DNA of 64,000 nt from Anaerolineae bacterium. GTDB taxonomy: Bacteria > Chloroflexota > Anaerolineae > B4-G1 > DUEL01. The notes beneath the pieces were generated by a model, which was given only the letters and a program-made list of their open reading frames with translations, was not told where the DNA came from and ran no database searches. The stretch lies in assembly GCA_025060135.1 (NCBI GenBank), contig JANXCY010000009.1, positions 23,433-87,432 on the forward strand. The letters are read 5' to 3'. The translations under genes were made by a program, and so were the position numbers. Of the stretch, positions 35,699-56,228 are shown one piece after another (the first letter of the stretch is position 1; each line of letters begins with the position of its first letter).

Positions 35699-38296
35699 TT
35701 ATGGTGGGGATTCTGCCTGAGAACCGATTCTCTCCGGCTCAGCCGTTACTGCCAGCCCGTGGCGGGCGCTCAGTTCCCGGAGGGATCCAAAAGCCGCCTG
35801 GGCGACTTCCGGTTCGGGGTCGTTCAGAGCACGGCGAAGGGCGTCCACGTGTTCGGGGCGGCCTACCCAACCCAGGGTTTGAGCGGCGGCCCGACGAATG
35901 GGGGCCGGCCCTTCTGCCAGGGCCCGGAGGAGGGGGCCAAAGGCGGCCTCGCCCAGGCCCACTCCCTCGCCTTGCTGGGCGGCCCAGGTAATGAGCCAGC
36001 CCATACTGGAGGGGACAGGGGGCGAAGGAGGAGGGACGGGAGTGGCTTTCTCTTCCCGTTCGGATAGAACGGTGGCCGCAGCAGAGCGGACAATCCACTG
36101 GGGGTCTTCCCGCGCGGCCCGGGCCAGCAATTCTCGGGCCCAGATAGCGTCCATCTCTCCCAGCCCATAGGCGGCAGCCCGCCGGATCATAAAGTCCTCG
36201 CTCTGGAGGGCTTCCCGGAGCGTCCGATAGCCCTCTTCTCCCTGACGGGCCAGTGCCCGGGCAGCCTCCACTTGGAGCGTTTCGTCTCCTGATTCCAGCA
36301 CGCGGACCAGCCACTCTACCGCAGCCGGGATGCCGATTTCTCCCAGCGCCTGAACCGCTGCGATCCGGACGGCTTCGTGGGGGTCCTCCAGCGCCTTGAC
36401 GATGGCGGAGAGGTCAGCTTTTTCGCGCAGGACGGCCATCATCCGGGCCGCGATGGCCCGTACCGTTGGATTGGGGCTACGAAGGGCGTGGCGCAGAAAC
36501 AGCGGTACACCCGGGTCGCCGGTCCAGATCAGCGCCTCCGCCAGTCGCTGACGGGATTCATCCGAGAGGTCAGGAGAGAGAAGGGAGCGACCCAGAAGAG
36601 CCATTACGCCATTGCGCCACGGGGCATCTGGCGGAGCCAGCGCGGCCCAGCGGGCTGCCCTCCGCAGGCGGCTCTGCCAGAGGTCATCGGGGCGGGAAAG
36701 CCAGGCGCGCACCACTGGTTCCATCCCGCCGATTTCGGCGTAGAAATCGGCTACCGGAAGCCAGGAGGGATCGTCCAGATGCGTGACCAGCTGGTCGGGC
36801 GCCAAGGCCAACGCTTCGGCGGTGAGCATCGCCTGCCAGAGAGGATGGGCAAACCGGTACTGGTCGGGGGCACAGGCGACCAGTGGCCCCCCCGGTCCTA
36901 GGAACGCCTTCACCCGCGCGGCCACGGCCAACCGCACTCGTTTCGGTTCGGGGAGCCTCGGGCGTTCCGACGGGGGTTCTTCTGGAGGAGAGGGGCCCTC
37001 TTCGGAAACGGGCGCTGCCGCCGAAGCCTCGCCTTCCGAGGCCGTATGGGGAGGAAGCCCCCTCTCTTCGGAGATCGGCTCCACCAGGGTTTCGTTCTCC
37101 CCCGCGGAAGCTTCCGCCAGGGGAAAGGCGGAAAGCAGTTGCTGGCGGATGAAGGCTTCCAGTTCCTGACGGGAACAGACGAATCGGCCCTCTTCCTGGA
37201 GTTTCCACGCCAGGGCGTACAGGATGTCCAGAGGGCTCATCCCCCCAGCCCATTCCAGGTCCGCAGAGAAGTCGGGCATCCCCTCTGCCCATTTCTCCAG
37301 GCGCTGACGGAAGGGGGCTACCCGTTTCGGCGGGAGAGTGCCGTGCTCCAGCAGCCATCCAGCGGCGAGCGCCACATCCAGCAGCGATTCGGTCTGTTTC
37401 CATATGCGCGTCAGATTTTCGGTTGCCTGGTCCAAAGGAAAATGTTCGGGCGTGGGCAGGCGGGTCAGGAAATCCTGGACCTCCGGACGGTCCCAGGGAC
37501 AGATCCGCAGGGGGATAAAACCGGCATGAATTAAAGGAGCGTACTGCTGGGCTCCCACAGCGACCACCCAGATATTGCCCGGGAAGGCATCGGCCAGTTC
37601 GGCCAGCCATGCGGTGGCTGGTGCCTGGGCGGCAGGAGGCAGTTCGTCCCATCCATCGGCCAGGACCAGCGCTCCACCCGCCTGGAGAGCCTGACGGAGC
37701 GGGGTCGCGGCGGAGCCAGGGGCGCCGATGGTCTGCAGCGCGCCCTGCACCAGTTGCTGGAGAGGGGTCGGGGACTTCTTTCCCTCCGATGCCGGAGCCC
37801 AGTCCAGCGCTGGGAGGTACACATAGAGGGGAAGGCGTCGGAGCGATGGGTCCGACGAGGCGCCATTTTCCTGGCGCGCGTGGGTCAGCGCCAGATGGGC
37901 CAGAAGGGTGGTTCGTCCGGACGCGGGGCTACCCACGATCAGAATTCGGGGATGACCCCGGAGGGCATCGGCTGGCAATAACGGCGGAGGGGCAGAGGAC
38001 CTGTCCTGCTCCGGGTCAGGGAAGGCAAGCGGGAGAAACAGGCGCACCGGCACGAAGTACTGCTCCAGGGGACCCAGGTCGGCCAGAGCATGGGCGCTTT
38101 GGGCCCAGCGGATGAGCCGCTCCCGGTATCGGGCCTCCCATCCGGCGGTCATCTGGCTGAAAGTGCGCAGGGCTATGCGTTTCAGTTCCTGCCAGCCCCG
38201 CAGGAACGGGTCCCGCAGGAGGTAGCCCAGACCCATCAGCAAAAGGGTGAATCCTGCGCCTACCAGAGCGGAGTAAATGTCCAGTTGCCAGCCCAT
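35699..38296 (-). CDS. Membrane-anchored NACHT-type STAND NTPase with C-terminal HEAT repeats
   Basis: An 865-aa protein. One N-terminal membrane helix (ALVGAGFTLLLMGLGYLL) puts the rest in the cytoplasm. The NTPase domain has a Walker A-like GSPASGRTT (residues ~119-127; Arg replaces the usual Lys), Walker B ALVLADGWDEL (~208-218) and a sensor-like VVAVGAQQY. An acidic Pro/Glu-rich linker lies near residue 400-450. From residue ~590 there are HEAT repeats (VRIAAVQALGEIGIPAAVEWL, FMIRRAAAYGLGEMDAIWA, IRRAAAQTLGWVGRPEHVDAL). NACHT/HEAT proteins act as ligand-triggered switches, including in anti-phage defence. No effector domain is evident. It starts 7 nt after the NTP-transferase-like gene. 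Confidence 0.82.
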   Translation of the reverse strand: MGWQLDIYSALVGAGFTLLLMGLGYLLRDPFLRGWQELKRIALRTFSQMTAGWEARYRERLIRWAQSAHALADLGPLEQYFVPVRLFLPLAFPDPEQDRSSAPPPLLPADALRGHPRILIVGSPASGRTTLLAHLALTHARQENGASSDPSLRRLPLYVYLPALDWAPASEGKKSPTPLQQLVQGALQTIGAPGSAATPLRQALQAGGALVLADGWDELPPAAQAPATAWLAELADAFPGNIWVVAVGAQQYAPLIHAGFIPLRICPWDRPEVQDFLTRLPTPEHFPLDQATENLTRIWKQTESLLDVALAAGWLLEHGTLPPKRVAPFRQRLEKWAEGMPDFSADLEWAGGMSPLDILYALAWKLQEEGRFVCSRQELEAFIRQQLLSAFPLAEASAGENETLVEPISEERGLPPHTASEGEASAAAPVSEEGPSPPEEPPSERPRLPEPKRVRLAVAARVKAFLGPGGPLVACAPDQYRFAHPLWQAMLTAEALALAPDQLVTHLDDPSWLPVADFYAEIGGMEPVVRAWLSRPDDLWQSRLRRAARWAALAPPDAPWRNGVMALLGRSLLSPDLSDESRQRLAEALIWTGDPGVPLFLRHALRSPNPTVRAIAARMMAVLREKADLSAIVKALEDPHEAVRIAAVQALGEIGIPAAVEWLVRVLESGDETLQVEAARALARQGEEGYRTLREALQSEDFMIRRAAAYGLGEMDAIWARELLARAAREDPQWIVRSAAATVLSEREEKATPVPPPSPPVPSSMGWLITWAAQQGEGVGLGEAAFGPLLRALAEGPAPIRRAAAQTLGWVGRPEHVDALRRALNDPEPEVAQAAFGSLRELSARHGLAVTAEPERIGSQAESPP

Positions 38297-40898: not shown

Positions 40899-41843
40899 CT
40901 ATCCTCCGCCGAATATCCTGCCAACGCCGGACCGAAGGACGATAATGACACCCGGTCCCAGCAGGACGATCAACAGGGCAGGGAAAATCAGGAAGACGAT
41001 GGGGATAATCATCTTGATCGGCGCCTGGCGGGCCAGTTCCTCCGCCCGCTGCCGTCGGCGCACCCGCATCTGGTCGGACTGAATTCGGAGGACCTTCGCG
41101 ATACTGACGCCCAACTGGTCAGCCTGAATCAGCGCGGCGACAAAACTGGAGACCTCTCGAACGTCCATGGTATCGGCCATGTTCCGCAGCGCTTCCCGTC
41201 GGAGTCTCCCCAACTGGATTTCCTGAAGGACCCGGGCAAACGCGCGGCTCAATTCGTTGTCCCACTTTTCCACCACTTTGGCCATCGCCGCATCAAAGGA
41301 GAGACCGGCCTCCACGCAAATGGTGAGCAGGTCCAGCGCGTCGGGCAGAGATTTGAGAATTTCTTGTTGACGCCGGCGGATCCGGGAGCCCAGCCACGAG
41401 CCGGGCAGGTAGAAGCCCAGCCCGAATGCCGCGCCAATCAGCGCTATCTTCTGGATGGTCGGGATACTGGCAGGGCCCAACACTAGAAAAGCGCCGCCGC
41501 CCAGCAGAATGCACAGGATGTAGCGAATCGCTACAAACTCCCCCGGCCCGATTTTCTGGGAAAGGCCCGCCAGTTCCAGGTTGCGGCGAGTGCGCTGGAG
41601 GGTCTGGGCGGGGGTCATCCGGCTGATCAGGCGGCTGACCGCCTGGAGCAGAGGACGAATGACCCGTTCGGTGAAAGGCAGGGAGAGTTCCAGTTCCTCC
41701 AGGGTCGCCGTGCGGCCCATTGCGCCCAGTTCCACCAGGCGGGCCTGCAGGGCGTCTTCGCCGCGCGGGGCGCGGCGTCCGATCAGCACCAGGGCCAGCC
41801 CGGCTACCATCAGCAAGCCCACCAGAATCAGCACCATCCCCAT
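40899..41843 (-). CDS. tadC: Tad pilus membrane platform protein TadC (T2SF family)
   Basis: A 314-aa inner-membrane protein of the type II secretion F family. It has one N-terminal membrane segment, a T2SF domain with GLSFDAAMAKVVEKWDNELSRAFARVLQEI, and two C-terminal hydrophobic segments (IIPIVFLIFPALLIVLLGPGVI). In Tad systems TadB and TadC form the platform on which the CpaF ATPase acts. Downstream of tadB with a 60-nt gap. Confidence 0.92.
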   Translation of the reverse strand: MGMVLILVGLLMVAGLALVLIGRRAPRGEDALQARLVELGAMGRTATLEELELSLPFTERVIRPLLQAVSRLISRMTPAQTLQRTRRNLELAGLSQKIGPGEFVAIRYILCILLGGGAFLVLGPASIPTIQKIALIGAAFGLGFYLPGSWLGSRIRRRQQEILKSLPDALDLLTICVEAGLSFDAAMAKVVEKWDNELSRAFARVLQEIQLGRLRREALRNMADTMDVREVSSFVAALIQADQLGVSIAKVLRIQSDQMRVRRRQRAEELARQAPIKMIIPIVFLIFPALLIVLLGPGVIIVLRSGVGRIFGGG

Positions 41844-41903: not shown

Positions 41904-42857
41904 CTATACCTCAATATCCGCGATTTTGCGCATCGTGAAGAAACCAATGGTCATGGTAATCCCTGCCACCACCAGCATGATCCGACCACAGGGGTCTTGA
42001 AACAGCGGGCCCATAAAACCGGGGTTAATCATGTACACAATGCCCGCCACACCAACGGGCAGCAGGCTGACCACGTAGCCGGAATAGCGGGCCTGGGCGG
42101 TCAGAGCCCGGATTTCTCCTTTGATGCGCACCCGTTCCCGGATGGTGAAACTGATCGTATCCAGGACCTCGGCCAGATTACCACCGACTTCCTGTTGAAT
42201 CTTGATGGCCGTAACGGTCATATCCAGGTCGTCGGAGGGAACACGACGGAGCAGGTTATCCAGAGCCCGATCCAGCGGAAGGCCCAACTGGGCCTCTTTC
42301 ACCACCCGGTCAAACTCCTCAGAGGCGGGAGGGTTCATCTCCCTGGCAACGACCTCCATGGCCTGAAGGACACTGTACCCAGCGCGGAGGGAATTGACCA
42401 TCATGTTAATGATATCCCCCAACTGGTCATTGAAGGCTTTCAGCCGTTTACCCTGGAGGTAGGCCACGTACCAGCGGGGAGCGAAGAAACCCAGAATCAG
42501 TCCGACCAGAGAGAGATACGGATCGCGACGCCACAGGAAAATCAGGACCGGAAAGAGGATCATACAGATCACTGTGGCGGCAATAAACTCTCCGGCGGTC
42601 AGTTTCAGGTTAGCGCGCGCCAGTTGGGTGCGCAGGTTGCGGGCCAGGCCCCGCTCTGCCAGGGCCCGATCCAGGCGCTCCCCCAACGGCGAGAACCGGG
42701 TGCCAGGTCCTCTCTCTTTTTGCTTTCGCTGCACCCCCAGCGTATACCGGTCCAGCCGTTCGCTGACCTCATCCCTCCGCCCACGACCGCTCAGGAGCAG
42801 ATAGACGAAAGCGCTCGCCAGCAACCCGATCCCCAGCATCAGCAACAGATTCTCCAT
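41904..42857 (-). CDS. tadB: Tad pilus membrane platform protein TadB (T2SF family)
   Basis: A 317-aa T2SF protein, start MENLLLMLGIGLLASAFVYLLL (ATG 42857 with GAGGAGGAGG upstream). The cytoplasmic domain has QLGDIINMMVNSLRAGYSVLQAMEVV and PLDRALDNLLRRVPSDDLDM, and C-terminal helices follow. It partners with TadC. It lies between cpaF and tadC, the standard Tad order. Confidence 0.92.
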   Translation of the reverse strand: MENLLLMLGIGLLASAFVYLLLSGRGRRDEVSERLDRYTLGVQRKQKERGPGTRFSPLGERLDRALAERGLARNLRTQLARANLKLTAGEFIAATVICMILFPVLIFLWRRDPYLSLVGLILGFFAPRWYVAYLQGKRLKAFNDQLGDIINMMVNSLRAGYSVLQAMEVVAREMNPPASEEFDRVVKEAQLGLPLDRALDNLLRRVPSDDLDMTVTAIKIQQEVGGNLAEVLDTISFTIRERVRIKGEIRALTAQARYSGYVVSLLPVGVAGIVYMINPGFMGPLFQDPCGRIMLVVAGITMTIGFFTMRKIADIEV

Positions 42858-42981
42858 CCCCTCCTCCTCAAGGCGCGCGGACCCGTTGATGGGGACGACC
42901 AAGGGGCCACCCCAACCCCAAAAACATCATCCTTTCGGCACGATGCCCGCCAGTCCCATCCCCAATTTCCCGGCGGTTCCT

Positions 42982-44364
42982 TTACCGGCGCATCCGTTCC
43001 CCGATGCCAAAGATGGTCGGCGGCAGATGGATGCCTGCCTGCTCAATTTTATCCATGAACTTCGGACGAATTCCGGTGGGGCGCAGCCGACCGATCACCT
43101 TCCCATTCTCGTAGCCCGCGATCTCAAACTTGAAAATCTCCGACATGGTGATGACATCGCCTTCCATCCCTTCCACCGAGGAGATGCTCACCACTTTCCG
43201 GGAACCATCCCGCATCCGCTCCAACTGGACAATCACATCCAGCGCGCTGGCGATCTGCTCCCGAATGGCCCGGTGGGGCAGGTCCATCCCGGCCATCAGG
43301 ATCATGTTCTCCAGGCGGGCCAGCGCGTCCCGCGGGGAGTTCGCGTGAATGGTAGTCATAGAGCCCTCATGGCCGGTGTTCATCGCCTGGAGCATATCAA
43401 ACGCCTCTGCGCCCCGGCACTCCCCCACGATAATCCGGTCGGGCCGCATCCGCAGGCTGTTGATGACCAGGTCGCGGATGGTTACCTCCCCCCGGCCCTC
43501 AATGTTCGGCGGGCGGGATTCCAGCGTAACCACATGCTCTTGCTGCAACTGCAACTCCGCCGCGTTCTCAATCGTGATGATCCGCTCGTCGTTGGGGATG
43601 TAGGCGGAAAGGATGTTCAGGAACGTCGTCTTTCCAGTACCAGTACCGCCGGAAACAACAATGTTCAACTTCGCCTGCACGCAGGCTTTCAGGAACTCCA
43701 TCGCCTCCGGGGTAATGGAGCCCAGTTCAATCAGTTTCTCAGCGGTCAACGGAATCTTGAAAAACTTCCGGATGGTCAGCACCGGGCCGATGAGGGAGAG
43801 GGGCGGGATAATGGCGTTGACCCGCGAACCATCAGGCAGGCGGGCGTCCTGATAGGGGACGCTTTCGTCAATCCGTCGGCCCAGAGGAGCGATGATGCGT
43901 TCTATGATGCGCATCAGGTGCTCCTCCGATTCAAAGGAAGCGTTGGTGCGTTCAATTTTGCCGAACCGCTCCACGTAGATGTTTTTGGGGCCATTCACCA
44001 TAATCTCGGTAACGGTGGGGTCGGCCAGGAACGGCTCCAGCGGCCCCAGCCCCAAAATCTCCGCCACGATCTGCTCAAAGAGCCGCTCCCGCTCTGCCCG
44101 ACTGAGAACGATCCGCTCTTCGGCCAGGATGTTCTCAAACATCTCTCGGATGGTGCGCCGGACCTCCTCCTGTCGGCTGACATCCATCGTGGGGTCCAGT
44201 TCGTCAATCAGTTTGTTCTGGATACGGGTTTTGAGGTCCCGGTACGTATCCCGCAGGGAGGAGGGCGCGGGGGTGGGACGGAATGTTGGCGCACTGGGCC
44301 CCGATGGCCCGGTCGGTGCCGTTGGTGGTTGGGTTCCTTTCTCAATCCGTCTTAACAGCGACAT
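42982..44364 (-). CDS. cpaF: Tad/CpaF pilus assembly ATPase
   Basis: A 460-aa hexameric secretion ATPase of the TadA/CpaF family that powers pilus extension and retraction. After a disordered Pro/Thr-rich N-terminus comes the helical domain ([21 protein letters not shown]), Walker [13 protein letters not shown] (~238-249), the Asp box [11 protein letters not shown], the His box ([21 protein letters not shown]) and the arginine-containing [27 protein letters not shown] precedes the ATG. Confidence 0.95.
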
Positions 44365-44461: not shown

Positions 44462-45760
44462 TCAAATCCCCAGGGCTCGACCCAGAAGACGGCGGCTGAC
44501 TTCCACGGAGACGGCTTCTTCTTCCTCTTCGGTTTTCCGGAGTTCACTCAGCCGTTCCAGGACCCCGGCGGCCAGTTGGACGAAAGCCTGACCGATGGGT
44601 TTGCTGGCTTCCTCGGTGGCGATGGGGAGTCCTCGATTGGCGGCGATGATGCCCGCCCGTTCATCGTACGGGATGTGAGCCAGGGCAGGGATCAGGGCCC
44701 GTTCAATCTGGTCCAGCCGCAGGCCGGTCTTCCGGTCAGCCTGATTGATGACCAGGCCGAGTTTCTCGCGGGGGTAGCCCAGCCGGTCCGCCAAGTCCAG
44801 AAAGTGGCGGGCGTCCTTGATGTCCGGGATCAGTGGTGTGATGACCAGCAGGATCAGGTCGGCCCGGTCCATAAAGGTCAGCGTCAGCTCGTTGAGCAGA
44901 CTCCAGGTATCCACCACCACCAAGTCAAACTCCCGCAGGAGGCCATCCAGGATGATCCCGATACGGCGGCTGCTCTCAGTCATTCCGCCATCGGCGCCGA
45001 TGACCGCATCGGCGGCTTCGGGGTGGGGCGGAGCCAGCAGGGCTTTGATACCCGAAGCATGGGGAGTCAGGACGCTGGTCAGCAGGTCGCTATCCAGTTC
45101 CTCCACCCGCACGGCCAGATCGGCGATGGTGCGGGCGGGCTGCAAGTTCAGCATCACTCCCACATCCCCGAACTGGAAACTGCCGTCCATAATGGCCACC
45201 TTCTGGCTCATACCCAGGCGGGTCTGGAGGGCCACGGCCAGGTTGACAGCGATCGTGGTGCAGCCGGCTCCGCCTTTTGGCGAAAAGACCACAATCAGTT
45301 GCCCGTGGCGGACGGCGGGGCGACCGACCGCGCCGGGAGCGGTAACAGTGGGAGCCGGCGCGATGCGTGCCGCCTGCACCTGCCCGATTTCGTAGACCCG
45401 GCGGATGGTGGCCATCAACTCATCCCCGCTGGGAGGCTTGACCAGGAAATCCCGCGCGCCAGCAGCCATCGCCCGGCGCATATAGCCCGTCTCCCCCTGG
45501 ACGGAGAGGATGATAATCTGGGTGGTGGGCACCTCCCGCGCGATCTGTTCGGTGGCAGTAATCCCGTCCATCCCGGGCAGGTTGATGTCCATGATCACAA
45601 CGTGGGGGACCAGTTCCCGCGCCATCTGGACCCCTTCCTCCCCGGTGGCGGCCGTACCTACAACCTCTATATCCGGGGCGAAGGAGAGCAGTTTGCGCAG
45701 GTTCTCCCGGGTTTCGGCAATATCATCTACGATGAGGACACGGATTTTTTCGGCAGGCAC
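44462..45760 (-). CDS. cpaE: CpaE/TadZ-like receiver-ATPase of the Tad pilus
   Basis: A 432-aa localisation factor. An N-terminal receiver domain (VLIVDDIAETRENLRKLL, phospho-acceptor in VIMDINLPGMDG) is followed by a linker and a MinD/ParA ATPase with the deviant Walker A VVFSPKGGAGCTTIAVNLA (~157-175). GTG 45760 was chosen because TGGAGGAAAC precedes it; upstream in-frame sequence lies in cpaB. A receiver that keeps its aspartate suggests control by a histidine kinase, and a DegS/DegU-type pair is encoded ~11 kb away. Confidence 0.93.
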   Translation of the reverse strand: MPAEKIRVLIVDDIAETRENLRKLLSFAPDIEVVGTAATGEEGVQMARELVPHVVIMDINLPGMDGITATEQIAREVPTTQIIILSVQGETGYMRRAMAAGARDFLVKPPSGDELMATIRRVYEIGQVQAARIAPAPTVTAPGAVGRPAVRHGQLIVVFSPKGGAGCTTIAVNLAVALQTRLGMSQKVAIMDGSFQFGDVGVMLNLQPARTIADLAVRVEELDSDLLTSVLTPHASGIKALLAPPHPEAADAVIGADGGMTESSRRIGIILDGLLREFDLVVVDTWSLLNELTLTFMDRADLILLVITPLIPDIKDARHFLDLADRLGYPREKLGLVINQADRKTGLRLDQIERALIPALAHIPYDERAGIIAANRGLPIATEEASKPIGQAFVQLAAGVLERLSELRKTEEEEEAVSVEVSRRLLGRALGI

Positions 45761-45800
45761 GTTTCCTCCAGAGACGGCTCTACAACGGCTCTCGGTGAAC

Positions 45801-46871
45801 CTACTCGGTGGGCCCTCCCCCTGCCGGAGCGCTGAGGCTGATCGCTTCTTCCAGCGGGTTCGTCTCGGGCGCGATGACCGCGTAGGGCAATTTCGGCGGG
45901 ACGGTGAAGTTGTAGCGGACGATGATGTAATCCTGGGAGACCGTTTCGGTGGAGACCAGTTCCCTGTCCTCCGGATTGCGCAGGGCAAGGGTGATGTCCG
46001 CCTTCATTTCCACTAGCGCCTTGAGGACCAGGGCTTCCTGAGGGTCGACCATCAGGATAACAGCCTGAACGTTCATCATTACAGGTGTGGGGGTCGGCTC
46101 GGCAGCGGTGCCCGAGACGGGTTGTCCCCCTTCTGTGGTCGGAGTGGGCTGAGGGACCGCCATCGGGACCGGTTCCTGGTACGTGCCCACGCCCAGCACC
46201 TCCGCGTTTTGAATGGTCACCTGGGCTACATAGCGGGCCTGAGTGCTCCCCGTCGAGGGGTATACCATAATGACCTGGCCGGTGGGCAGAAGTTCTACCC
46301 GTCCATAGACTCCCTGGCACAGTTGCCCTTCAGCGCACTGGAAGGCGGCCCACTGGTTGGGCAGGAGACTCTGGAAATCCTGATCCAATTCCTGGATCGT
46401 CCACGAGGCCAGTACATCCACACGGTCGCCGGGCTGGATAGACCAGGCCACTGCTCCCAGGCGGTCCACCGGGATGGCGACGGCGCGCTTGCCTTTCTTA
46501 ACCCGGAGAGCCGCTGGGGAGCCCATGGCCCCCAGGGCTTCCGAGCTGGAGGCCAGCATGCCCGGCATCAGGGGCATCCCCTGGGGAATATCCACCCGTG
46601 CGATATAGCCGATGACCTGGGCCGGGTCGGTAAAATAACTCGGCGGCAGGTAGGCGATCGGCCAGTCCAGCACCATCACCAGCTCAGGAGAGAGGGGCAT
46701 TCCCGGGGTCAGATTGTTCGCAGCGACCAGGATTTTCATCGTTTGGGGCACCTCGGTGGGAGCAGGGGTTTCCCCACCCCTTCGGGGGGGGCGCATCAGC
46801 AGCGCGCCGGCAATGAGCGCAACGCCGATGATTAAGAGGCCTACCAGAACCAGGGTCCGCCGGCTTGCCAT
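45801..46871 (-). CDS. cpaB: CpaB/RcpC pilus assembly protein
   Basis: A 356-aa protein with an N-terminal membrane helix (TLVLVGLLIIGVALIAGALLM). An SAF domain follows (ILVAANNLTPGMPLSPELVMVLDWP, IPQGMPLMPGML), then the CpaB/RcpC domain (KRAVAIPVDRLGAVAWSIQPGDRVDVL). In diderms CpaB works with the secretin. No secretin gene is visible here, and its retention suggests a wall-linked role. It has its own promoter at 47000-47027. Confidence 0.93.
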   Translation of the reverse strand: MASRRTLVLVGLLIIGVALIAGALLMRPPRRGGETPAPTEVPQTMKILVAANNLTPGMPLSPELVMVLDWPIAYLPPSYFTDPAQVIGYIARVDIPQGMPLMPGMLASSSEALGAMGSPAALRVKKGKRAVAIPVDRLGAVAWSIQPGDRVDVLASWTIQELDQDFQSLLPNQWAAFQCAEGQLCQGVYGRVELLPTGQVIMVYPSTGSTQARYVAQVTIQNAEVLGVGTYQEPVPMAVPQPTPTTEGGQPVSGTAAEPTPTPVMMNVQAVILMVDPQEALVLKALVEMKADITLALRNPEDRELVSTETVSQDYIIVRYNFTVPPKLPYAVIAPETNPLEEAISLSAPAGGGPTE

Positions 46872-47293: not shown

Positions 47294-49459
47294 TTATTCT
47301 ACCAGCCGCAGGAAGATGCGCTCGTAGAGTTCGTCGAAGATCTGATTCAGTTTCTCCGGGCGGTCGGCGTTCCGGTGGACTCCACCCGTGATGTTCGCTA
47401 CCGTCTCCATCAACTCAAAATCGGCCGAGTCCCCCAGGGTGATGGTGTAGATCACGATGTTGTTGTTGCGGGCCTGCTCGGCGTAGTAGAGGGTGCACTC
47501 TTTCCCCCGGCGTTCCTCTTCCCGGGAGGGCACACTCAGGCCGTATTTCTGAATGAGGTTGTACGTGTAACAGGTGCTGTTGGGGACCTGATTGGGCCGG
47601 CCGTCGGTCATCAAAATCATGATGTGGGCCGCACCGGGCCGACCATACTGGCCAGATCGGGTGCTCAGAACGTCAATCCCTTTTAAAATCCCATCGGCGA
47701 TATTGGTAGACCCAGCGGCCTGGGTGGCATTCAGCGCGGCAACGACCGTATTGGTGATGACCGAAGGGTTACAATTTGCGACACCCCGCCGACGCAGGCA
47801 TTCCAGTGGGGAGTCAATCGTGGCGCTATCGGAGTAGGAGACGTACCCAATCTGGTCATACCGGTAATCCAGCATCCCTACGAACCGCTTGGCGGCCTCA
47901 ATGGCGGCCCGGATGGGCTGCTCGTCGTCGTAGATGTCGTCCTTGCGGCGGTCCGGGTTGGGGCCGCTATTGCAGTTGGGAGAGTAGGCGCAGGTAGACT
48001 GCCCACAGCCGCCGGGATAACCGCCGAAGCGAGCATCGCAGGGGTTGCAGGCCCAATCTGTGCGTCCATTGGAGAATACGCCCGTTCGTTCGATGTTAGT
48101 ATTCACGGAAGTTGAAGGGTCGTTGGTGATCACGATGCGGTCCAGAGCGAAGCCAGCCCCGCCCGCCCAGATGCGGAGGGTGTGCTGGGAACCGGCGGTC
48201 AAGTAGATAGGCGTGTCATTCAGCCGACGCCATCTCCAGAAATTGGGATCAGCACCATTATAGCTGACGCCTCGTGAAAATTCAGGTGTATAAGTGATGG
48301 GACTACTATTCACATTCCAGAAAATCCGGAGGTCCAGATTCTGAGGATGACGCCAGCTACTCTGAGCCTGACCGCGCACCCAGATGTAGTAGTTGCCGGT
48401 CCTCAGTACGGTGAAATCATAATCTACCCGGGGCGCTGGGAATGGGCCGCCGGGGACATCCATCTTGCAATAACACTGGGTGTATCCAGAGGCCGCGCAC
48501 TGGCCGTTGTTGACAACAGCATCCAGGCGGCAGGTAACGCCATAACCCGGGGAAAAGGTGGCCTGTGTCTCATGATCGGAATAGGGCATATGCATAATGT
48601 AAGCCCCTCGGCTATCCCGACCCGAGGCGCCGTCGCCCGCCTCCCGCTGCATCACCCAGTATGTGTAGTAGGGCACGTACAGATAACGGTTATATGGGTT
48701 GCTGGCCCGGGAGTACTCTTCCGCCTCGATATAATAGTAGTTATATTGCTGGCTACCCAGGGCATAGGTGAACACCGTGGTAGCGCCGCAGTGGGCAGGT
48801 GGACCGTTGGGCGGGCCGTTCCAGGGGAGAGGGTAAATCAGACCCCCCGGATACGGGATGCCTGATTGGGCCTGCCAGCATCCGTAGCAGAGAGTGTCAA
48901 ACTCCATAGAGCCGGAGCGGTCAAAGACGATGACGATATCCAGGTTTTTGATATTTTCGGCGGTGGCCGAGGCGCTGACCCAGAGAGAATCAAAGCCCAG
49001 GAAGCGCATGAAAATGACCGGCACCCGCTGTCTGACCCTTACCCGGATGCGGTCGGCTGTGTTGGGCTGCTGGGCGGGTGGCAGGCTCAGGTCCCGGAAA
49101 CTGGCGGTGTCCAGAATGATGATGGTGTCCGCCTGGTCCTCGGGAGGGCCCTGAACATGCGATCCATTGATCTCCAGACGGGTTCTCGGGTTTCCATCGT
49201 TATAACCGTTATCCCGTAGAAATTCCCGGGCCCGGGCATGGGCGGCGCTTTCCAGCGGGAGTTCCGGGGCCGCCGCCAGCGCAGCCGCATCCACCGCCCG
49301 TACGATGCGGACCCGTTCGCTATAATACACCCCCAGATCCACAGCCAGCCCCACAAAAGCCAGCAGGGTGAACACGCCCACCATCACCAGGATTATGCTC
49401 TGCCCGTGCTGGTTACCCCCCTCGCGAAAGCACCGGAACAGCCATTTCGGGCATCTCAT
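47294..49459 (-). CDS. TadG-like pilus protein: VWA domain interrupted by a carbohydrate-binding-like insertion
   Basis: A 721-aa surface protein. The N-terminus has the TadG/Flp-like hydrophobic segment GQSIILVMVGVFTLLAFVGLAVDLG. The VWA metal-binding motif is DRSGSM at ~180-186, but the rest of the VWA fold (EQPIRAAIEAAKRFVGML, VSYSDSATI, TDGRPNQVP) resumes only at ~515. Between lie a Tyr/Gly/Cys-rich stretch and a CBM6/35-like domain (YYIEAEEY...NYYIWVRGQ...HTLRIWAGGAGFALDRIVI). Cysteines are frequent in the insertion. ATG 49459 has AGGAGGT upstream. It probably acts as a tip or adhesive subunit. Confidence 0.85.
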   Translation of the reverse strand: MRCPKWLFRCFREGGNQHGQSIILVMVGVFTLLAFVGLAVDLGVYYSERVRIVRAVDAAALAAAPELPLESAAHARAREFLRDNGYNDGNPRTRLEINGSHVQGPPEDQADTIIILDTASFRDLSLPPAQQPNTADRIRVRVRQRVPVIFMRFLGFDSLWVSASATAENIKNLDIVIVFDRSGSMEFDTLCYGCWQAQSGIPYPGGLIYPLPWNGPPNGPPAHCGATTVFTYALGSQQYNYYYIEAEEYSRASNPYNRYLYVPYYTYWVMQREAGDGASGRDSRGAYIMHMPYSDHETQATFSPGYGVTCRLDAVVNNGQCAASGYTQCYCKMDVPGGPFPAPRVDYDFTVLRTGNYYIWVRGQAQSSWRHPQNLDLRIFWNVNSSPITYTPEFSRGVSYNGADPNFWRWRRLNDTPIYLTAGSQHTLRIWAGGAGFALDRIVITNDPSTSVNTNIERTGVFSNGRTDWACNPCDARFGGYPGGCGQSTCAYSPNCNSGPNPDRRKDDIYDDEQPIRAAIEAAKRFVGMLDYRYDQIGYVSYSDSATIDSPLECLRRRGVANCNPSVITNTVVAALNATQAAGSTNIADGILKGIDVLSTRSGQYGRPGAAHIMILMTDGRPNQVPNSTCYTYNLIQKYGLSVPSREEERRGKECTLYYAEQARNNNIVIYTITLGDSADFELMETVANITGGVHRNADRPEKLNQIFDELYERIFLRLVE

Positions 49460-49469
49460 TTTGCACCTC

Positions 49470-50111
49470 CTACTGACTTTGACGGGCATCTGAAACCACC
49501 CGCATCACAGAGCGGGAGTACAACTGCAAAACGCGCGGCAACCCCAGGGGCCGATAGTTCCACAACGTCCAGTGCGCGTAGAAGACTTCCACCACGACGA
49601 GCCGATTGTCCAGCGCTTCGTATCCAGCGGCCACCCGCTGCTGATTGATCGTGCGGGTCTCGTTCTCGTGACGGGCAAGGTCAATCTCTGCTACCCGGCT
49701 GTCTCCTACAGTGATAGGCCTTGTAATGATCGCGGTCCCCGAGATCACCGTCATCGTTCCCGTCAGGTATCGCGTGATGTCGCCCCGCGTCCCATCGGAT
49801 TGGATCGGAATATGCGTGATGATGATTCCGGTGTTGGGATCCGGCGGGGAAGCCCGGAAGAAGAGCACCTGCTGGTTGTTCAACGTCGTGTATCCGCCGC
49901 TGTTCAGCATCCAGCGGGCCGCGTCTTCATCGGTATACCGGGCCCGCGCGACAAACCGGACCCCTTCCCGGCAGGCAGTGGTAACCAGGAGGTAACTGCG
50001 CAGGGCCAGGGCAGTCTCCACCATCCCGATAATCAGCAGGATCAGGAACGGCAGAATAACCGCCAGTTCCACGATACTCTGTCCGCTCTGGCGCACCTTC
50101 TTACCGTTCAT
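49470..50111 (-). CDS. tadE: TadE-like minor pilin
   Basis: A 213-aa pseudopilin-like protein with N-terminal GQSIVELAVILPFLILLIIGMVETALALRSYL, the TadE motif with the conserved Glu. The extracytoplasmic part is beta-rich. ATG 50111 has AAAGGAG upstream; the longer ORF start is a read-in. It ends 10 nt before the VWA gene. Confidence 0.9.
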   Translation of the reverse strand: MNGKKVRQSGQSIVELAVILPFLILLIIGMVETALALRSYLLVTTACREGVRFVARARYTDEDAARWMLNSGGYTTLNNQQVLFFRASPPDPNTGIIITHIPIQSDGTRGDITRYLTGTMTVISGTAIITRPITVGDSRVAEIDLARHENETRTINQQRVAAGYEALDNRLVVVEVFYAHWTLWNYRPLGLPRVLQLYSRSVMRVVSDARQSQ

Positions 50112-50374
50112 TTCCGCTCCTTTCCCCCGATGCGGTGCTGCTCTCAGAGGGTATCGGAACAGGCTGAAAGACGCTGACTCTGGGCGCAGCGCAGGCTGGG
50201 AGCCAGCCTCCACAGACCTGGCGGCCTGTATGACATGCTTCAAAATTCCCAACGATGTAGGTCCTGGGGAAGAGACGCACGCTCAGCGAAGGGCCGCCTT
50301 CACTCCTCAACGCTCCTCCCGCCCGGTTTCGTGCAGGCACGGCGCGCACTTTCGCTCTCCCTGCGGCCATCCGC

Positions 50375-51004
50375 TCAGGGAAGGACCCTCCCATCCACTC
50401 CGCTAATCATCAGGGTGTGGACCTGGGTACCGGCGGTCGTGGTGATGGTCCACACCGGCGATGGGTCGGCCATACTGGTAGGCTTCAGCCGGGCGGTTAC
50501 CCCGGCGTTTTTGTAGCGGGCCAGGAAGTCCGCTCCCCCAGCGACCCACCAGGCCTTCAGCGCCTGAGGACTATCCACCAGCCAACGGTCTTCGGTGAAG
50601 ACGGGCAAAGGATAAGGAATAGGCATCTCCTGGAGGAGCCAGGCCTGCCCTGCCTCCACCACCACCACAGCCATCCGACCGGCCGCTGGAGCGTAATAGA
50701 GAACGGTCCAGATGCTCTGGGTTGGCCACCTCCCCCGGATCGGCTGCCACTGGGCGGAGAGAGAGGCAGGCCGCGCATCCGGTTGCCAGGCCCGGGCCAC
50801 TCCTCCGGCCGCGCGGAAGGCTTCCCGGGCCGTGGGCTCCAGCGGCAGGGGGATGAGCGGGCCCGCGGGGATCCGGCTCTCCTCCGGCCCCGCCGCTGGC
50901 CACATCAGGAGAATCGCCAGCCCCAGCGCGGCGATAAAGGCCAGCCCCCCTATCAGCCCCCATCGGCCTCCATCTCTCTTCGGCGCAGCGCGCGGAGGGC
51001 GCAT
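50375..51004 (-). CDS. Membrane-anchored protein, PepSY-like C-terminus
   Basis: A 209-aa protein with one N-terminal membrane segment (WGLIGGLAFIAALGLAILLM) and an extracytoplasmic region I cannot place in a family. The end (SPVWTITTTAGTQVHTLMISGVDGRVLP) resembles the strand-turn-strand of PepSY-type modules. Between a secreted protein and tadE, it likely belongs to the pilus surface unit. The start is followed closely by Arg/Lys, which fits an inside-positive orientation. Confidence 0.6.
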   Translation of the reverse strand: MRPPRAAPKRDGGRWGLIGGLAFIAALGLAILLMWPAAGPEESRIPAGPLIPLPLEPTAREAFRAAGGVARAWQPDARPASLSAQWQPIRGRWPTQSIWTVLYYAPAAGRMAVVVVEAGQAWLLQEMPIPYPLPVFTEDRWLVDSPQALKAWWVAGGADFLARYKNAGVTARLKPTSMADPSPVWTITTTAGTQVHTLMISGVDGRVLP

Positions 51005-51060: not shown

Positions 51061-52524
51061 TCAGCGGAAATTCCGCAGCACTACCGGCAGGTAGACCCGG
51101 GAGCATTTCTGATCCTCGTTGCCGTCATAGTAGGTCTCCCAATCAGTTACCTGCCCGCTGGCGTTCGGCACACCCTGGATGTACACCACATGCAGGGCCT
51201 CCCCGGACAGGAACGGTGCCACCGCCGGGCTGGCCGAATGCCGCGGGGCATTCAGCCCGAAGCGGCGAATTTCGCCCCACTCTATGGCCTCTTCAGCGTT
51301 CTCCGGCACCGTCAGCGCTTCGGTATAGTAGATGTTGTAATCCGGGTTGTCGGTCGTCCCGTCGTTGGCGTGCCAGACCACCACCGGCTTCCCGTCCGCC
51401 CGGAAGCCCACCGACGGGCGCAGGAAACGGATGTACTCCGCGACCGCGCCGGTGGAAGTATAGGGCCGGTCTGTGCCTTGAAACCCTCCTCCCAGTTCAT
51501 ACCAGTAGAATCTCCCGGTGGAGTCCTGAGGCCACTGGTCGCCGTTGTTCGTGGAGCGGATGTAGGCCAGGGTATACCTCTCACACTGTTCTTGAGCGGT
51601 AGAGCACCCCTCGTCTGTCCAGGCATTGTTCATATCCCACGCCACCAGCACGGTGCTGCTGAAAACAGCGATGGCCGGACTGTGGGGGGCATAACCCAGA
51701 TCTTGTTGCAACAGACGGGACGATGGGGCCCAACCGCTCGTCGTTCGGCGCCGGTAGAAGATGGAGTAGTAGCCATCTTCGCTGGTGGGCTCGGTTGCCC
51801 AGACCACGTGAACCGCGCCTCCGTTCCAGGCGATGGCGGGGAGGCGAGCGTTTTGATTCTCAGACACAGTTTCTGCGGGGATGTTCGGGCTCCGGTAATA
51901 AACAGTGCCCACGTCTTTTCCCTGCGAAAGGTCGCGCCGATAATAGGTATACGCGAAGTGGGGCTGCCCCGCGCCATCCAGCGCAACGTCCACCGCGCCG
52001 TAGCCTGGTTCACTTTGGGACCCTGATAAGTGGGTAGTATAAACAACGGTCTGGACAGGGCCGCACGTGCCCCCCAGAGGGCAGACCCGGTAGCGAACCG
52101 CCTGGGAAGTGAATTGATCGCACGGGCTCTGGGTGATGTAGGCGACAACAGCGGTGTAGGGATTGGTACCGGTAACCGCTACGGCGGCCCAGCGGGCGCA
52201 TTCGCTGCTGGTGCCCGTATGCACCGGTACCCGCGCGCTCCAGCCGCCGGTACGCTCCGAGGCCCAGCGCAGGTAGACGGAGCCCTTCATGGCTCCTCCG
52301 CCGTCCTGATATGCCTCCGACCAGGCAACGACAACCCGGTCTCCGTCCGGGCTGACGGCAATATCCGCGTAATAGGAGAAACGGTTCGGGCTTCCAGAGA
52401 GATTGGTGGCGATGTGCAGGAACGCGGCGCGTGGCGCGGCCAGCGCTCCGGAGAAGGCCAGGGCGCCCAGCATTCCGGCCAGCAGGGCCGCGATCCCTAA
52501 AAGGACCCGCTTTGAACGCGGCAT
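51061..52524 (-). CDS. Secreted beta-propeller-like (sialidase-type) protein with YLPVVLRN C-terminal tail
   Basis: A 487-aa exported protein. The signal segment is VLLGIAALLAGMLGALAFSGALA. The body contains repeated strands with Asp-box-like and 'VVAWSE/VHVVWATEP/VVVWHAND' motifs typical of sialidase-fold beta propellers. There is no clear catalytic Arg triad, so an enzymatic role is unsupported. The C-terminus KCSRVYLPVVLRNFR matches a tail I associate with secreted proteins of Anaerolineae and relatives. It sits in the pilus surface operon. Confidence 0.75.
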   Translation of the reverse strand: MPRSKRVLLGIAALLAGMLGALAFSGALAAPRAAFLHIATNLSGSPNRFSYYADIAVSPDGDRVVVAWSEAYQDGGGAMKGSVYLRWASERTGGWSARVPVHTGTSSECARWAAVAVTGTNPYTAVVAYITQSPCDQFTSQAVRYRVCPLGGTCGPVQTVVYTTHLSGSQSEPGYGAVDVALDGAGQPHFAYTYYRRDLSQGKDVGTVYYRSPNIPAETVSENQNARLPAIAWNGGAVHVVWATEPTSEDGYYSIFYRRRTTSGWAPSSRLLQQDLGYAPHSPAIAVFSSTVLVAWDMNNAWTDEGCSTAQEQCERYTLAYIRSTNNGDQWPQDSTGRFYWYELGGGFQGTDRPYTSTGAVAEYIRFLRPSVGFRADGKPVVVWHANDGTTDNPDYNIYYTEALTVPENAEEAIEWGEIRRFGLNAPRHSASPAVAPFLSGEALHVVYIQGVPNASGQVTDWETYYDGNEDQKCSRVYLPVVLRNFR

Positions 52525-52712: not shown

Positions 52713-55700
52713 TTAAGGTTGCAGCAGCAGGTCCACGCCGTAGTTCCGCTCGTCGGCGACGACGGTAACCGTGGCGGTACCCCACTGGAGTTGACCACTC
52801 ACCCATGTGGCGGCGTAGACGGTATAGGTGCCGGGCGGGATGTTATAGAAGTGGTAGGTGCCGTCGTGGATGGTGCGGGTGCGCAGGACCTGGCTGCCCT
52901 GTCTGTAGGCCCAGACGTTCACCCCGGTCAGGGGTTGAGGGACACCGCCGACCAGGGCGCGCACCAGCCCCCCGATGGAAGCAGTGCCCGGCACCGGGTC
53001 CGGAATCGGCCAGTAGGTGCAGACGCTGCAACTCAGGTCGTCCAAAAAGAAGAAGGTGCCGTAGTAGTCATTGTCGTGGGTGCCGTAGAAATAGACCTGG
53101 ATGTTCTGGCCGGCCAGGGCAGATACGTTCACCCCCCTGTTGGTGAAGTTCACATCAAAGCGCTGCCAGGTTTCGGTAACAACGCCCCCGTTCACGATGG
53201 CGACAGGTGCCGTAATAGGGCTTCCGTTGCTCTGACGCAACTGGACATAGAGGACATCGTCGGCGTCCGGGATGCCCCGGTAACTGCAATCGGTGAGACT
53301 GCCAGCCACAGCGTGCCATCCGCTCACCACCAGGTGGGTGAGCGTGTAGACGTTGGTGGGAACCTGGACGGTCTGGAAAAGATACGGGCTGTAGGATGCG
53401 CAGGTCGGATAGGAGCCCAGAGAGGCGTGGAGCCGCATGGAAAAGGCGCCCGAGCGCTGGAGGTAGCCGGTGTGCTGGTAAGCCCCGAGCCCTCCGGCGC
53501 TCCAGTAGGTGAAGATGCGCTGCGGGTTCCCCTCAAACCCACCCACCTGCAGGAGTTCGCTGCACTCTTGGAGGCCGGGCGGCTTGATCTCCCCTTCGTC
53601 CCACGGTGGCGGCTCCGGTGGGCGGCAGATCGCATCGGTGATCACATAGGTCACCCGGACCGGGACCCAGTCCAGATTGAAGGTTTTGGACGAGGAGGCC
53701 CCGTTGTGGGCCGACACCCGGACGCGGAAAGCGTTGTTGGCCAATTCGCTTACCGTCCAGGTTCGGCCCCAGGTGTCGTTGGGCCCACCCAGAACCGCCG
53801 TACGTTCGCTGGTGGAGAGGGTGCCATCCTGCTTCCTGGATGTCCAACTGGACCCGTTGTTCCAGGACAACTCGGCCCCCATAGAGCCGCTCCCCGCCGT
53901 GCTGTTGACCCACCAGTCCAGCCGAACCTCTATGCCCTGGATCGTGGCGGTGGTGGGGACAGAGAGGCTATAGTTGTAGAACTGATGGGTCTGAGTCGTA
54001 TTGGAGGATACCGAGACGCTGGCGGCTCCGCCACCGTCCGTATAGGCGTTGGTCGCGCTCGAAAAATTGCCATTATCGGTAGACGGGTTGAACCAGCCCG
54101 TGGTAATGGTCTGAGGGTAGAAACAACCCGCCGTAACGATCACGGACGTCAGGTTGTTCTCTTCGTTATCCTCCGCCACATAGTTAGTGGTATCCACCCG
54201 GGCGGAAATCCGGTACTGCCCCTCGGCCGGGAGCCAGAGTTGAGCCGTGATGACGGTGGATTCGCGCGGGCCGATGCCTGCCACCCACTGTTTGACCAGG
54301 CCCAGTTGCCCGGGGGCTGGCGGCGGCTGACTCAGCGCGGTGACGTAGAAATCCACGTCAAAGATTTCCGTGGTGAGGCCCGCGGTGGTGTTGGAAATCA
54401 CTGCCGTAACGGTAAAGATGTTCCGTACCGGGATGCGCGAGGGGAAATTCAGCGCCGCCACCATCATATCGGGCCGGACAGGGCGAACATACAGGTCGGC
54501 GGAGTAGGCAACCCGGGTGGCCGTGTTCCCGCAGGTACCGGAACCGGTGTGGCTTTCCAGCCGGTAATAGCCTGCGCTCCCCATGGGAATCTGGACCGGC
54601 AGGTCCAGGGCATCCCAGGTACTGGTATCCACGTTGATGCCGGTCATCAGGACGGCGGAGGAGATACCGCCAGTAACCGAAGTCCGGCACCAGAGGAGCC
54701 GGTGTGGATTCCCGGACGGGGGATGGTCGTACAGGCTGACGGAAATCCAGTCCAGCGGGAGGACAGAGTGGGTGGAGGCAACGATGTAGGGCCCGCTAAC
54801 AGTCCATTGTTTGGTTGCCGTATCGGTGGGCTCCGTGGTATCCCACTGCTGGTTGCCGTTGATGTCTATCCAGGCCCGCAGATTGGCGGTACCAGGCCGG
54901 TTGGCATAGACGGTGAGAACGGCGGTACCTGTAGAGTCGGTTTGAGCCTCGCCGTAGCCGGGGCCGGTGCCAGAGTAATCAAAGGAGCCGAAACTGGTGG
55001 AATAACTGACCCGGACATTGGGCAACACCTCTCCGGTATCCTGATCGGTAACCCGGACCGACACAGGATGGCCCCGCCCGGTGGGAAGTTGATTGGTAGC
55101 GGTGTCAAACTGGATGTCCACCCGGTAGCGGATGGGGCGAGGAGTAGGTGTGGGCGTGGTGGGAGTCGGAGTTACCGGAGCCTGGGTGGGGACAATGAAG
55201 GTGGGCGGCGGTCGGAAGGTCGGCGGGGGGATGTTGCCGAAGCCAACCTGGGTGCCCTCGTTTAGCATCGTAACATGCGATTCTACCCGGACGTACGGGG
55301 CAAAGGCCCGGAAGATCGGGTCCATCAATTCCACGTTGTGGACCACCCGGATCCGAATCGGGAGGCCAGGGAGGCTGGGGTGATCCAGTTGCTCCTGGGC
55401 GTCAAAGGCCGGGAAGCCCCAGACCTGGACGCCAAAGAAGCCCGGGGTACCCGAATACGCGTTGAAGTTGGCCGTGGTCAGCCCGATGGCGTTCGGGTTG
55501 ATCCGGAGGCCCACGGCCCGCTCCAGCGCGACCAATTTGATCATCGCTACCCGACGTCCGTTGTAGTTCTCCAGGGTCTCCGCGGCACTACAGCGGTTGC
55601 TCAGTTCGGTGTACCGGGTGGGGCGAGGGGTGATGTTGTTCCACCAGTTGGCCCACCAGGCGGCAGTAGCGTCCGAACCGGTACATGGGTCAAAGGGGTC

Positions 55701-55955
55701 GCAGTGCTCGCGACTCGCGGTCCCCTCCAGCTGGCACCCCTGAGGGGGCTGATACGTGATGGCCCAGCGGGCCGCCTCCCGGGCAGCGTGCTGGACTGCC
55801 AGGTACCCTTGAAGGATCAGGGCGCCTTCAATGATCAGAAAAATGATCAGCAGCAGCACCGGGAGGACAAGGGCAAACTCCACCATGGATTGTCCCCGGC
55901 TCCATCGCCAGGGCAATCGGCATCCGTTCCAGCGCGCATTCCTTACCTGTTCCAT
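52713..55955 (-). CDS. Giant TadE-fusion surface protein
   Basis: A 1080-aa protein whose N-terminus is a TadE pilin module (GQSMVEFALVLPVLLLIIFLIIEGALI, residues ~21-47). A ~200-residue pilin-like ectodomain follows, then a Pro/Thr linker (PTQAPVTPTPTTPTPTP, ~250-272). Next come an invasin/Big-like unit (FGEAQTDSTGTAVLTV type, ~275-370) and a further beta unit. A CARDB-like repeat follows (~490-610; VISNTTAGLTTEIFDV...YVAEDNEENNLTSVIV), then jelly-roll-like domains (TFFFLDDLSCSVC) and a carboxypeptidase-regulatory-like end (SIGGLVRALVGG...YHFYNIPPGTYTVYAAT). TadE proteins are usually 120-250 aa. ATG 55955 follows GGGAGGGGCAA. Confidence 0.85.
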   Translation of the reverse strand: MEQVRNARWNGCRLPWRWSRGQSMVEFALVLPVLLLIIFLIIEGALILQGYLAVQHAAREAARWAITYQPPQGCQLEGTASREHCDPFDPCTGSDATAAWWANWWNNITPRPTRYTELSNRCSAAETLENYNGRRVAMIKLVALERAVGLRINPNAIGLTTANFNAYSGTPGFFGVQVWGFPAFDAQEQLDHPSLPGLPIRIRVVHNVELMDPIFRAFAPYVRVESHVTMLNEGTQVGFGNIPPPTFRPPPTFIVPTQAPVTPTPTTPTPTPRPIRYRVDIQFDTATNQLPTGRGHPVSVRVTDQDTGEVLPNVRVSYSTSFGSFDYSGTGPGYGEAQTDSTGTAVLTVYANRPGTANLRAWIDINGNQQWDTTEPTDTATKQWTVSGPYIVASTHSVLPLDWISVSLYDHPPSGNPHRLLWCRTSVTGGISSAVLMTGINVDTSTWDALDLPVQIPMGSAGYYRLESHTGSGTCGNTATRVAYSADLYVRPVRPDMMVAALNFPSRIPVRNIFTVTAVISNTTAGLTTEIFDVDFYVTALSQPPPAPGQLGLVKQWVAGIGPRESTVITAQLWLPAEGQYRISARVDTTNYVAEDNEENNLTSVIVTAGCFYPQTITTGWFNPSTDNGNFSSATNAYTDGGGAASVSVSSNTTQTHQFYNYSLSVPTTATIQGIEVRLDWWVNSTAGSGSMGAELSWNNGSSWTSRKQDGTLSTSERTAVLGGPNDTWGRTWTVSELANNAFRVRVSAHNGASSSKTFNLDWVPVRVTYVITDAICRPPEPPPWDEGEIKPPGLQECSELLQVGGFEGNPQRIFTYWSAGGLGAYQHTGYLQRSGAFSMRLHASLGSYPTCASYSPYLFQTVQVPTNVYTLTHLVVSGWHAVAGSLTDCSYRGIPDADDVLYVQLRQSNGSPITAPVAIVNGGVVTETWQRFDVNFTNRGVNVSALAGQNIQVYFYGTHDNDYYGTFFFLDDLSCSVCTYWPIPDPVPGTASIGGLVRALVGGVPQPLTGVNVWAYRQGSQVLRTRTIHDGTYHFYNIPPGTYTVYAATWVSGQLQWGTATVTVVADERNYGVDLLLQP

Positions 55956-56228
55956 TTGCCCCTCCCAGGAACAGTTCATGTGAGGAACAACCATCCCCCT
56001 CTGACTGCCGGTGCAGGCCGGTTTCTCTCGGCGTTTGTTCCCAAATAGGGCCTGATCTCCGGGATCGGCAAGAGTCATTCGGTCCCGCAGATAATCCCGA
56101 TGCCAGCAATAGCAAACCGCCGGGCCTGGAATCTGGGGGGTGCATTGCAGTCCGCAGTTCCAGCCCGGCCCTGTAGAAGTCTGCGACGTGGCCTGGTGGA
56201 TGCCAGGTATGACAGGGATTTCATCCTT
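55956..56228 (-). other. Long leader of the pilus surface operon
   Basis: About 265 nt between the promoter and the TadE-fusion ATG. It contains inverted words (CCTGGCATCCACCAGG, GGGCCGGGCTGG), but I recognise no established riboswitch. A GGGGGATGGTTGTTCCTC stretch looks a little like the start of a fluoride aptamer, but the rest of that motif is missing. Confidence 0.5.

Follow-up and report, generated by a model that had tools for sequence, protein, structure and literature searches.

A TadG-like minor pilin of Anaerolineae-type Chloroflexota with a VWA domain split by a predicted CBM-type jelly roll: a candidate two-headed Tad tip adhesin

The DNA analysed here, a 64,000-nucleotide stretch of an Anaerolineae contig (the window), carries a Tad pilus operon on its reverse strand (Table 1). 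The gene order is a giant TadE-CARDB gene, a BNR-like gene, a gene for a 210-residue protein, TadE, the TadG-VWA-CBM gene that is the subject of this study, RcpC, a CpaE-like gene, TadA, TadB and TadC; this order is kept in close relatives, and largely in distant ones whose contigs extend far enough. The 210-residue protein remains conserved in the operon down to ~23-35% identity. The giant TadE-like minor pilin stays near the TadG-VWA-CBM gene in relatives and is a candidate for a second tip protein. In the whole genome there is a single TadG-like gene, a single prepilin peptidase and one Flp-like pilin (EGQGLAEYGLILVLVAIVVIVIL, L112), the last below the Pfam cut-off. No secretin was found in the whole genome, though the Tad inner machine is present, which agrees with an envelope that has no secretin-bearing outer membrane. 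Downstream of the operon, the reverse-strand gene at 35699-38296 encodes a protein with HEAT repeats and a sub-threshold match to a NACHT-like NTPase. The exported BNR-like neighbour shares with other exported Chloroflexota proteins (L092, L093, L094, L105) a C-terminal tail of Y-L-P, hydrophobic residues and K/R (VYLPVVLRNFR, TYLPVILKP, YYLPTLFKEQ, YYLPVIVKEAAP, IYLPWASK), which may serve as a sorting or anchoring tag not yet characterised.

Table 1. Coordinates of the Tad operon and of the parts of the TadG-VWA-CBM protein within the window
Feature	Position	Strand	Basis or remark
TadE-like protein with CARDB and carboxypeptidase-regulatory-like domains	52713..56078	-	Pfam; relatives' operons
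Exported BNR-like neighbour	51061..52524	-	Pfam match below cut-off
Conserved ~210-aa neighbour	50375..51004	-	No Pfam match; kept in relatives' operon
TadE-like minor pilin	49470..50252	-	Adjoins the TadG-VWA-CBM gene in nearly all relatives
Shine-Dalgarno AGGAGGT	49465..49471	-	Read directly
TadG-like minor pilin gene, VWA split by CBM-like insert, 721 aa	47294..49459	-	ATG 49459; Pfam Tad, Tad_C, VWA
N-terminal pilin-like long helix, residues 29-76 (Pfam Tad 31-74)	49262..49405	-	Pfam, model
Pilin-head region, residues 78-179 (Pfam Tad_C)	48953..49258	-	Pfam, model
VWA strand 1 and MIDAS motif DRSGSM, residues 183-195	48905..48943	-	Model; conserved in 44 sequences
Beta1-alpha1 loop insert, residues 197-523	47921..48901	-	Model, alignments; not present in the 7 insert-less TadG-VWA proteins
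N-terminal Cys neck, residues 197-243 (C201, C204, C234)	48761..48901	-	Cys conservation and co-variation
CBM6/35/GH115_C-type jelly roll, residues 244-456 (predicted)	48122..48760	-	Models, Foldseek, GH115 C-terminal domain profile match
Variable low-confidence Cys loop within jelly roll, residues 305-350	48440..48577	-	pLDDT <60; C320-C331 co-vary
C-terminal Cys neck, residues 457-523 (C481, C484, C506)	47921..48121	-	Cys conservation and co-variation
VWA remainder, residues 524-731	47297..47920	-	Pfam VWA E 5e-12, model
MIDAS T595	47705-47707	-	Within VWA remainder
MIDAS D629	47603-47605	-	Within VWA remainder
RcpC/CpaB	45801..46871	-	Pfam
CpaE/TadZ-like, receiver and ParA-type ATPase	44462..45988	-	Pfam
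TadA/CpaF ATPase	42982..44364	-	Pfam
TadB (T2SSF)	41904..42902	-	
TadC (T2SSF)	40899..41843	-	

The gene lies within a 731-residue open reading frame (47294-49489) and contains no internal stops. Translation more likely starts at ATG 49459, giving 721 residues, than at the start of the longer frame, because a perfect AGGAGGT stands directly before this ATG and the upstream TadE gene has its stop at 49470; the initial annotation had chosen the same, better start. Residue numbers in this paper count from Met1 of the longer frame, so that those of the initial annotation are lower by 10. Its description of the product as a pilus protein is borne out by the conserved operon and by the Pfam domains: Tad (PF13400), the N-terminal hydrophobic helix domain, scores 41 bits against a cut-off of 22.3, above the gathering score, and Tad_C follows at residues 78-177. 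Pfam VWA matches only residues 524-718 (46.8 bits) and enters the profile at position 15, without strand 1. The match is partial because strand 1 and DRSGSM (residues 190-195) lie 327 residues upstream; thus, the VWA is indeed split, as the initial annotation had proposed, by an insert of about the length it gave (~330 residues) that immediately follows strand 1 and the MIDAS loop. The motifs YYIEAEEY and FALDRIVI, taken to mark a carbohydrate-binding unit, lie at opposite ends of a jelly roll that covers only ~210 of the 327 residues; Cys-rich necks make up the remainder. TDGRPNQVP was misplaced as the start of the resumed VWA: the motif occupies residues 628-636, and the VWA resumes at 524. 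NCBIfam gave only weak VWA or TadE-type matches, and a phmmer search of the PDB with the single protein no useful match; profile searches did match.

An AlphaFold2 model of the full protein, built with 23 sequences (pLDDT 78, pTM 0.62), places the pilin-like helix at 29-76, then the head, VWA strand 1 at 183-190 and the insert. After the insert, the VWA fold continues with helices at 525-539, 575-588, 597-608 and 657-675 plus the last helices, and with strands at 545-552, 556-563, 621-628 and 678-685. The Rossmann-type VWA is thus complete in the model and closes around the insert, so that the intact VWA around a discrete jelly roll for which the initial annotation had suggested looking was obtained, and the outcome it had named as refuting, a disordered insert or a VWA that fails to close, did not occur. 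The best Foldseek match of the whole model in the PDB is Streptococcus sanguinis PilB (E 1e-8); many VWA and I domains (vWF A3, integrin I, ITIH) match at TM by target of 0.65-0.76, and GH115 enzymes were independently matched for the insert. The MIDAS set is complete, with DxSxS (D190, S192, S194) and the distal T595 and D629. Apart from two S-to-T exchanges, these residues are kept in 44 of 44 family members, both Asp and the Thr in every one. The VWA head thus has a complete predicted MIDAS, a putative metal and ligand site.

Relatives were sought in related genomes and in GTDB contigs. Full-length relatives range from 80% identity in the same genus to ~27-41% in other Anaerolineae-type Chloroflexota. 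In alignments of 18 and of 23 sequences, the MIDAS motif, the CYGCW that follows it, IEAEEY and PRVDY are invariant or nearly invariant, as are W391, W418, DRIVI and C484/C506. Among the 44 family members examined, the insert is present in 37 (33 of pilin type and 4 secreted, spread over many independent assemblies) and absent from 7 related TadG-VWA proteins. It measures about 290-400 residues in most relatives and ~290-562 overall, differing between lineages; in some Anaerolineales (L050, L051, L053) it reaches ~490-560 residues, with extra Cys-rich loops. The insert-less proteins, of 370-397 residues, read LDIMLVFDRSGSMDDDSCS...PPQPITDAKDAAKAFVDM around the empty site, where only 28-48 residues (~92 in L099/L100) stand in place of 290-560. 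One Eggerthellaceae protein (L054) was dropped as an insert-bearing relative, only its VWA having matched. One genome (G037) that has the insert-bearing form also encodes a TadG-VWA paralogue with a degenerate MIDAS (SDIAGATK) and no insert (L057:1026-2111).

The initial annotation rested on one sequence, so that two adjacent genes joined together, or an assembly artefact, could have imitated an insertion. This reading is almost certainly wrong and was rejected: the relatives already exclude confinement to one assembly, with the same arrangement in all of the insert-bearing proteins, and in addition the window gene is free of stops, the insert-less homologues show the empty site and the model closes. 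Nor is the arrangement due to chance, 37 insert-bearing proteins having kept it. In a tree of the VWA computed without the insert columns, one branch with 100/100 support separates insert-bearing from insert-less proteins, a single change of state. This is consistent with one insertion, in an ancestor of the lineage; the tree being unrooted, a single loss is also compatible with it. The secreted proteins L092-L095 are without the pilin domain and have the same split VWA-CBM unit (with DUF11 in L092 and L093), and in the tree each stands beside a pilin-type protein of its own genome or family. With all rows counted, the secreted state requires 4 changes on the tree, so the split unit passed to secreted proteins without a pilin domain on at least four occasions; the nested VWA-CBM unit therefore travels as one piece. 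In a Thermoflexia MAG (G79), a further open frame for a secreted protein (L049:5827-7035) has DKSGSM and a CBM-like insert but stops short of the resumed VWA; it may be a secreted copy with a frameshift.

Modelled alone, the insert gives a pLDDT of 71 and a pTM of 0.77. In Foldseek this model matches GH115 C-terminal domains at E 2e-7, CBM6 structures (2cdp, 1uxz, 5fui) at TM by target of 0.65-0.71 and CBM35 (2wz8) at 0.70. The lowest confidence within the insert falls on 305-347, the Cys loop in the jelly roll, and on 496-499 in the C-terminal neck. The insert profile searched against the PDB found the C-terminal domain of the GH115 enzyme AxyAgu115A (E 0.004), and in a phylum sample it found relatives that stand free, in Chloroflexota proteins of kelch- and RHS-like type. 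The matching part of these is GH115_C (E 6e-13 and 1e-17), in one also CBM_6 (E 4e-4). The only curated-family match above cut-off is in these free-standing relatives, and not in the insert of the TadG protein, to which Pfam CBM_6 and CBM_35 have no match and GH115_C (residues 352-455) matches at 21.2 bits, below its cut-off of 24.1. In the same Chloroflexota sample, the insert-only search found no other VWA-nested insert beyond the Anaerolineae-type lineage. Taken together, model and profiles indicate that the insert core is a CBM6/CBM35/GH115_C-type jelly roll at the level of fold and superfamily. The CBM6/35 unit of the initial annotation thus holds for fold and superfamily; it lacks a match to either Pfam family and, seemingly, the canonical CBM6 Asn. 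By eye, against the CBM6 motif, whose canonical ligand residues are an aromatic pair and an Asn, W418 (invariant) is kept, and the ligand Asn position seems to be replaced, with F447-A448 before LDRI. The EAE and D450 of the insert, classically structural Ca2+ ligands, are conserved, and Trp and Tyr are conserved in the jelly roll. CBM-type jelly rolls may alternatively bind proteins or serve a structural role.

It is a possible, though not a probable, reading that the insert has lost sugar binding and is an arm beside the MIDAS that shapes or shields a protein-binding site. Arms flanking the MIDAS are common in the VWA domains of bacterial pili (PMC7835359; PMC8179133), and the VWA of the tip adhesins RrgA, GBS104 and Mfa5 is likewise opened by arms beside the MIDAS (PMC7835359). 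The apparent replacement of the Asn and the variable length of the insert also fit such an arm. The known arms, however, sit elsewhere in the fold: in RrgA, GBS104 and Mfa5, strand 4 and helix 4 flank ARM2, ARM1 is set inside strand C, and neither is a CBM jelly roll (PMC7835359), whereas the large insert of the TadG protein lies between strand 1 and helix 1. Only a short Cys loop (~640-665) occupies the RrgA-type ARM2 position of its VWA. The core is, moreover, recognisably of the CBM superfamily, with EAE, D450 and the Trp/Tyr conserved, and its free-standing relatives are GH115_C members, both of which speak against a mere arm.

The Cys residues of the insert were compared among the 37 insert-bearing sequences. 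C201 and C204 are invariant in all of them. C234 and C481 occur together in 33 and are both absent from 3, with one mismatch (Fisher p 5e-4); C484 and C506 are together in 34 and both absent from 2, with one mismatch (p 0.0045); for C320 and C331 the counts are 24 together, 12 without either and one mismatch (p 7e-9). Mapped onto the tree, these patterns come down to two independent events for each of the first two pairs and three for the last; the events being so few, the pairing is suggestive, not proof. C234 is in the N-terminal and C481 in the C-terminal neck; their co-variation suggests a disulfide that clasps the two necks, and a bond between opposite necks would shut the jelly roll at its base. 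Around the necks and the VWA there are some ten conserved Cys in total, and this brings in another reading, in which the protein is a mechanosensor and not an adhesin, its disulfide-rich VWA responding to force, as has been suggested for CpaL and PilY1, with the CBM-like domain serving only as an attaching hook. Deletion of CpaL, the TadG orthologue, stimulates surface sensing, and CpaL is a candidate mechanosensor (PMC12607857); the VWA cysteines of PilY1 have been implicated as well (PMC9210963). No signalling partner was identified here, and we consider this reading decidedly unlikely; it is also compatible with an adhesin and does not exclude it.

We lean, with slightly better than even confidence, towards a two-headed Tad tip adhesin, in which a TadG/CpaL-type minor pilin bears a VWA head and a CBM-like head on one chain. 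We propose the following: First, the protein would be built into a Chloroflexota Tad pilus as a minor pilin, with the fibre tip as its most likely place, by analogy with CpaL (PMC12607857) and with Myxococcus Tad tips (PMC12075869). Second, the CBM6/35-type beta-sandwich would stand beside the metal site by chain connectivity, because the loop into which it is inserted bears the first MIDAS motif. Third, disulfides (C234-C481, C484-C506) probably staple the necks, so that the insert would form a rigid side-arm and not a loose loop. Such a side-arm may bind polysaccharide, be it of the biofilm matrix, the sheath or other cells, a role suggested by its superfamily and by the glycan-binding module of PilC (PMC9934059), and the MIDAS, by analogy with PilB (PMC8179133), may contribute or modulate a second contact. 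A retracting pilus could then transmit its tension by way of these necks to the MIDAS loop, although any mechanical or allosteric coupling between VWA and jelly roll is speculative. The initial annotation, which had proposed that the insertion couples metal-dependent adhesion to glycan recognition, is borne out in its anatomy, while its functional part stays a proposal. A stricter form of this coupling, in which a captured glycan pulls on the MIDAS loop through the stapled necks and thus switches MIDAS affinity, seems to us rather unlikely.

Among known systems, CpaL and TadG each count as an established or proposed minor pilin of Tad pili; in those of Caulobacter and Aggregatibacter they share the TadG-like pilin module, CpaL has a VWA with a MIDAS and a proposed tip position, and a CBM insert is not reported (PMC12607857). 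This plain form is what the insert-less Chloroflexota TadG-VWA proteins (L055, L056, L096-L098) resemble. S. sanguinis PilB (PDB 7b7p; PMC8179133) is likewise a minor pilin with a bulky VWA and a complete MIDAS, and PilC (PMC9934059) demonstrates that pilins can bear a glycan-binding module; these, however, are modular type IV and not Tad minor pilins, with VWA and lectin on two separate pilins, and the arms of PilB are small and of non-CBM fold. In the Aeromonas split-domain RTX adhesin AhLap, ligand domains, including a fucose-binding CBM, bud from split host domains; there, the VWFA has a 9-kDa, mid-fold insert that is not a CBM, and the CBM buds from an Ig-like domain (PMC12077191). The GH115_C, CBM6 and CBM35 domains (6nps, 4zmh, 2cdp, 1uxz, 2wz8), with which the insert shares its fold and distant sequence similarity, are appended end to end to enzymes, whereas here the domain is nested in a VWA loop with extra Cys loops. 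The insertion loop thus differs from those of the earlier modular VWA pilins (PilB, CpaL) and split-domain adhesins (RrgA, Mfa5, AhLap), and we found no description in the open-access literature searched of a CBM nested in the loop between VWA strand 1 and helix 1, or of such a Tad pilin.

Anaerolineae-type Chloroflexota are mostly uncultured filamentous or biofilm bacteria, and how they recognise surfaces is barely known. The TadG-VWA-CBM protein provides for them a defined and conserved tip-adhesin candidate with two putative sites. The insert-less TadG-VWA proteins, the insert-bearing pilins and the secreted copies form a natural series for the nesting of a CBM in a MIDAS loop, and the split-domain rule for locating the ligand domains of adhesins is extended from RTX adhesins to Tad minor pilins. 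If switching by a captured glycan were true, the Tad pilus would grip only with the sugar and a second ligand both engaged under tension.
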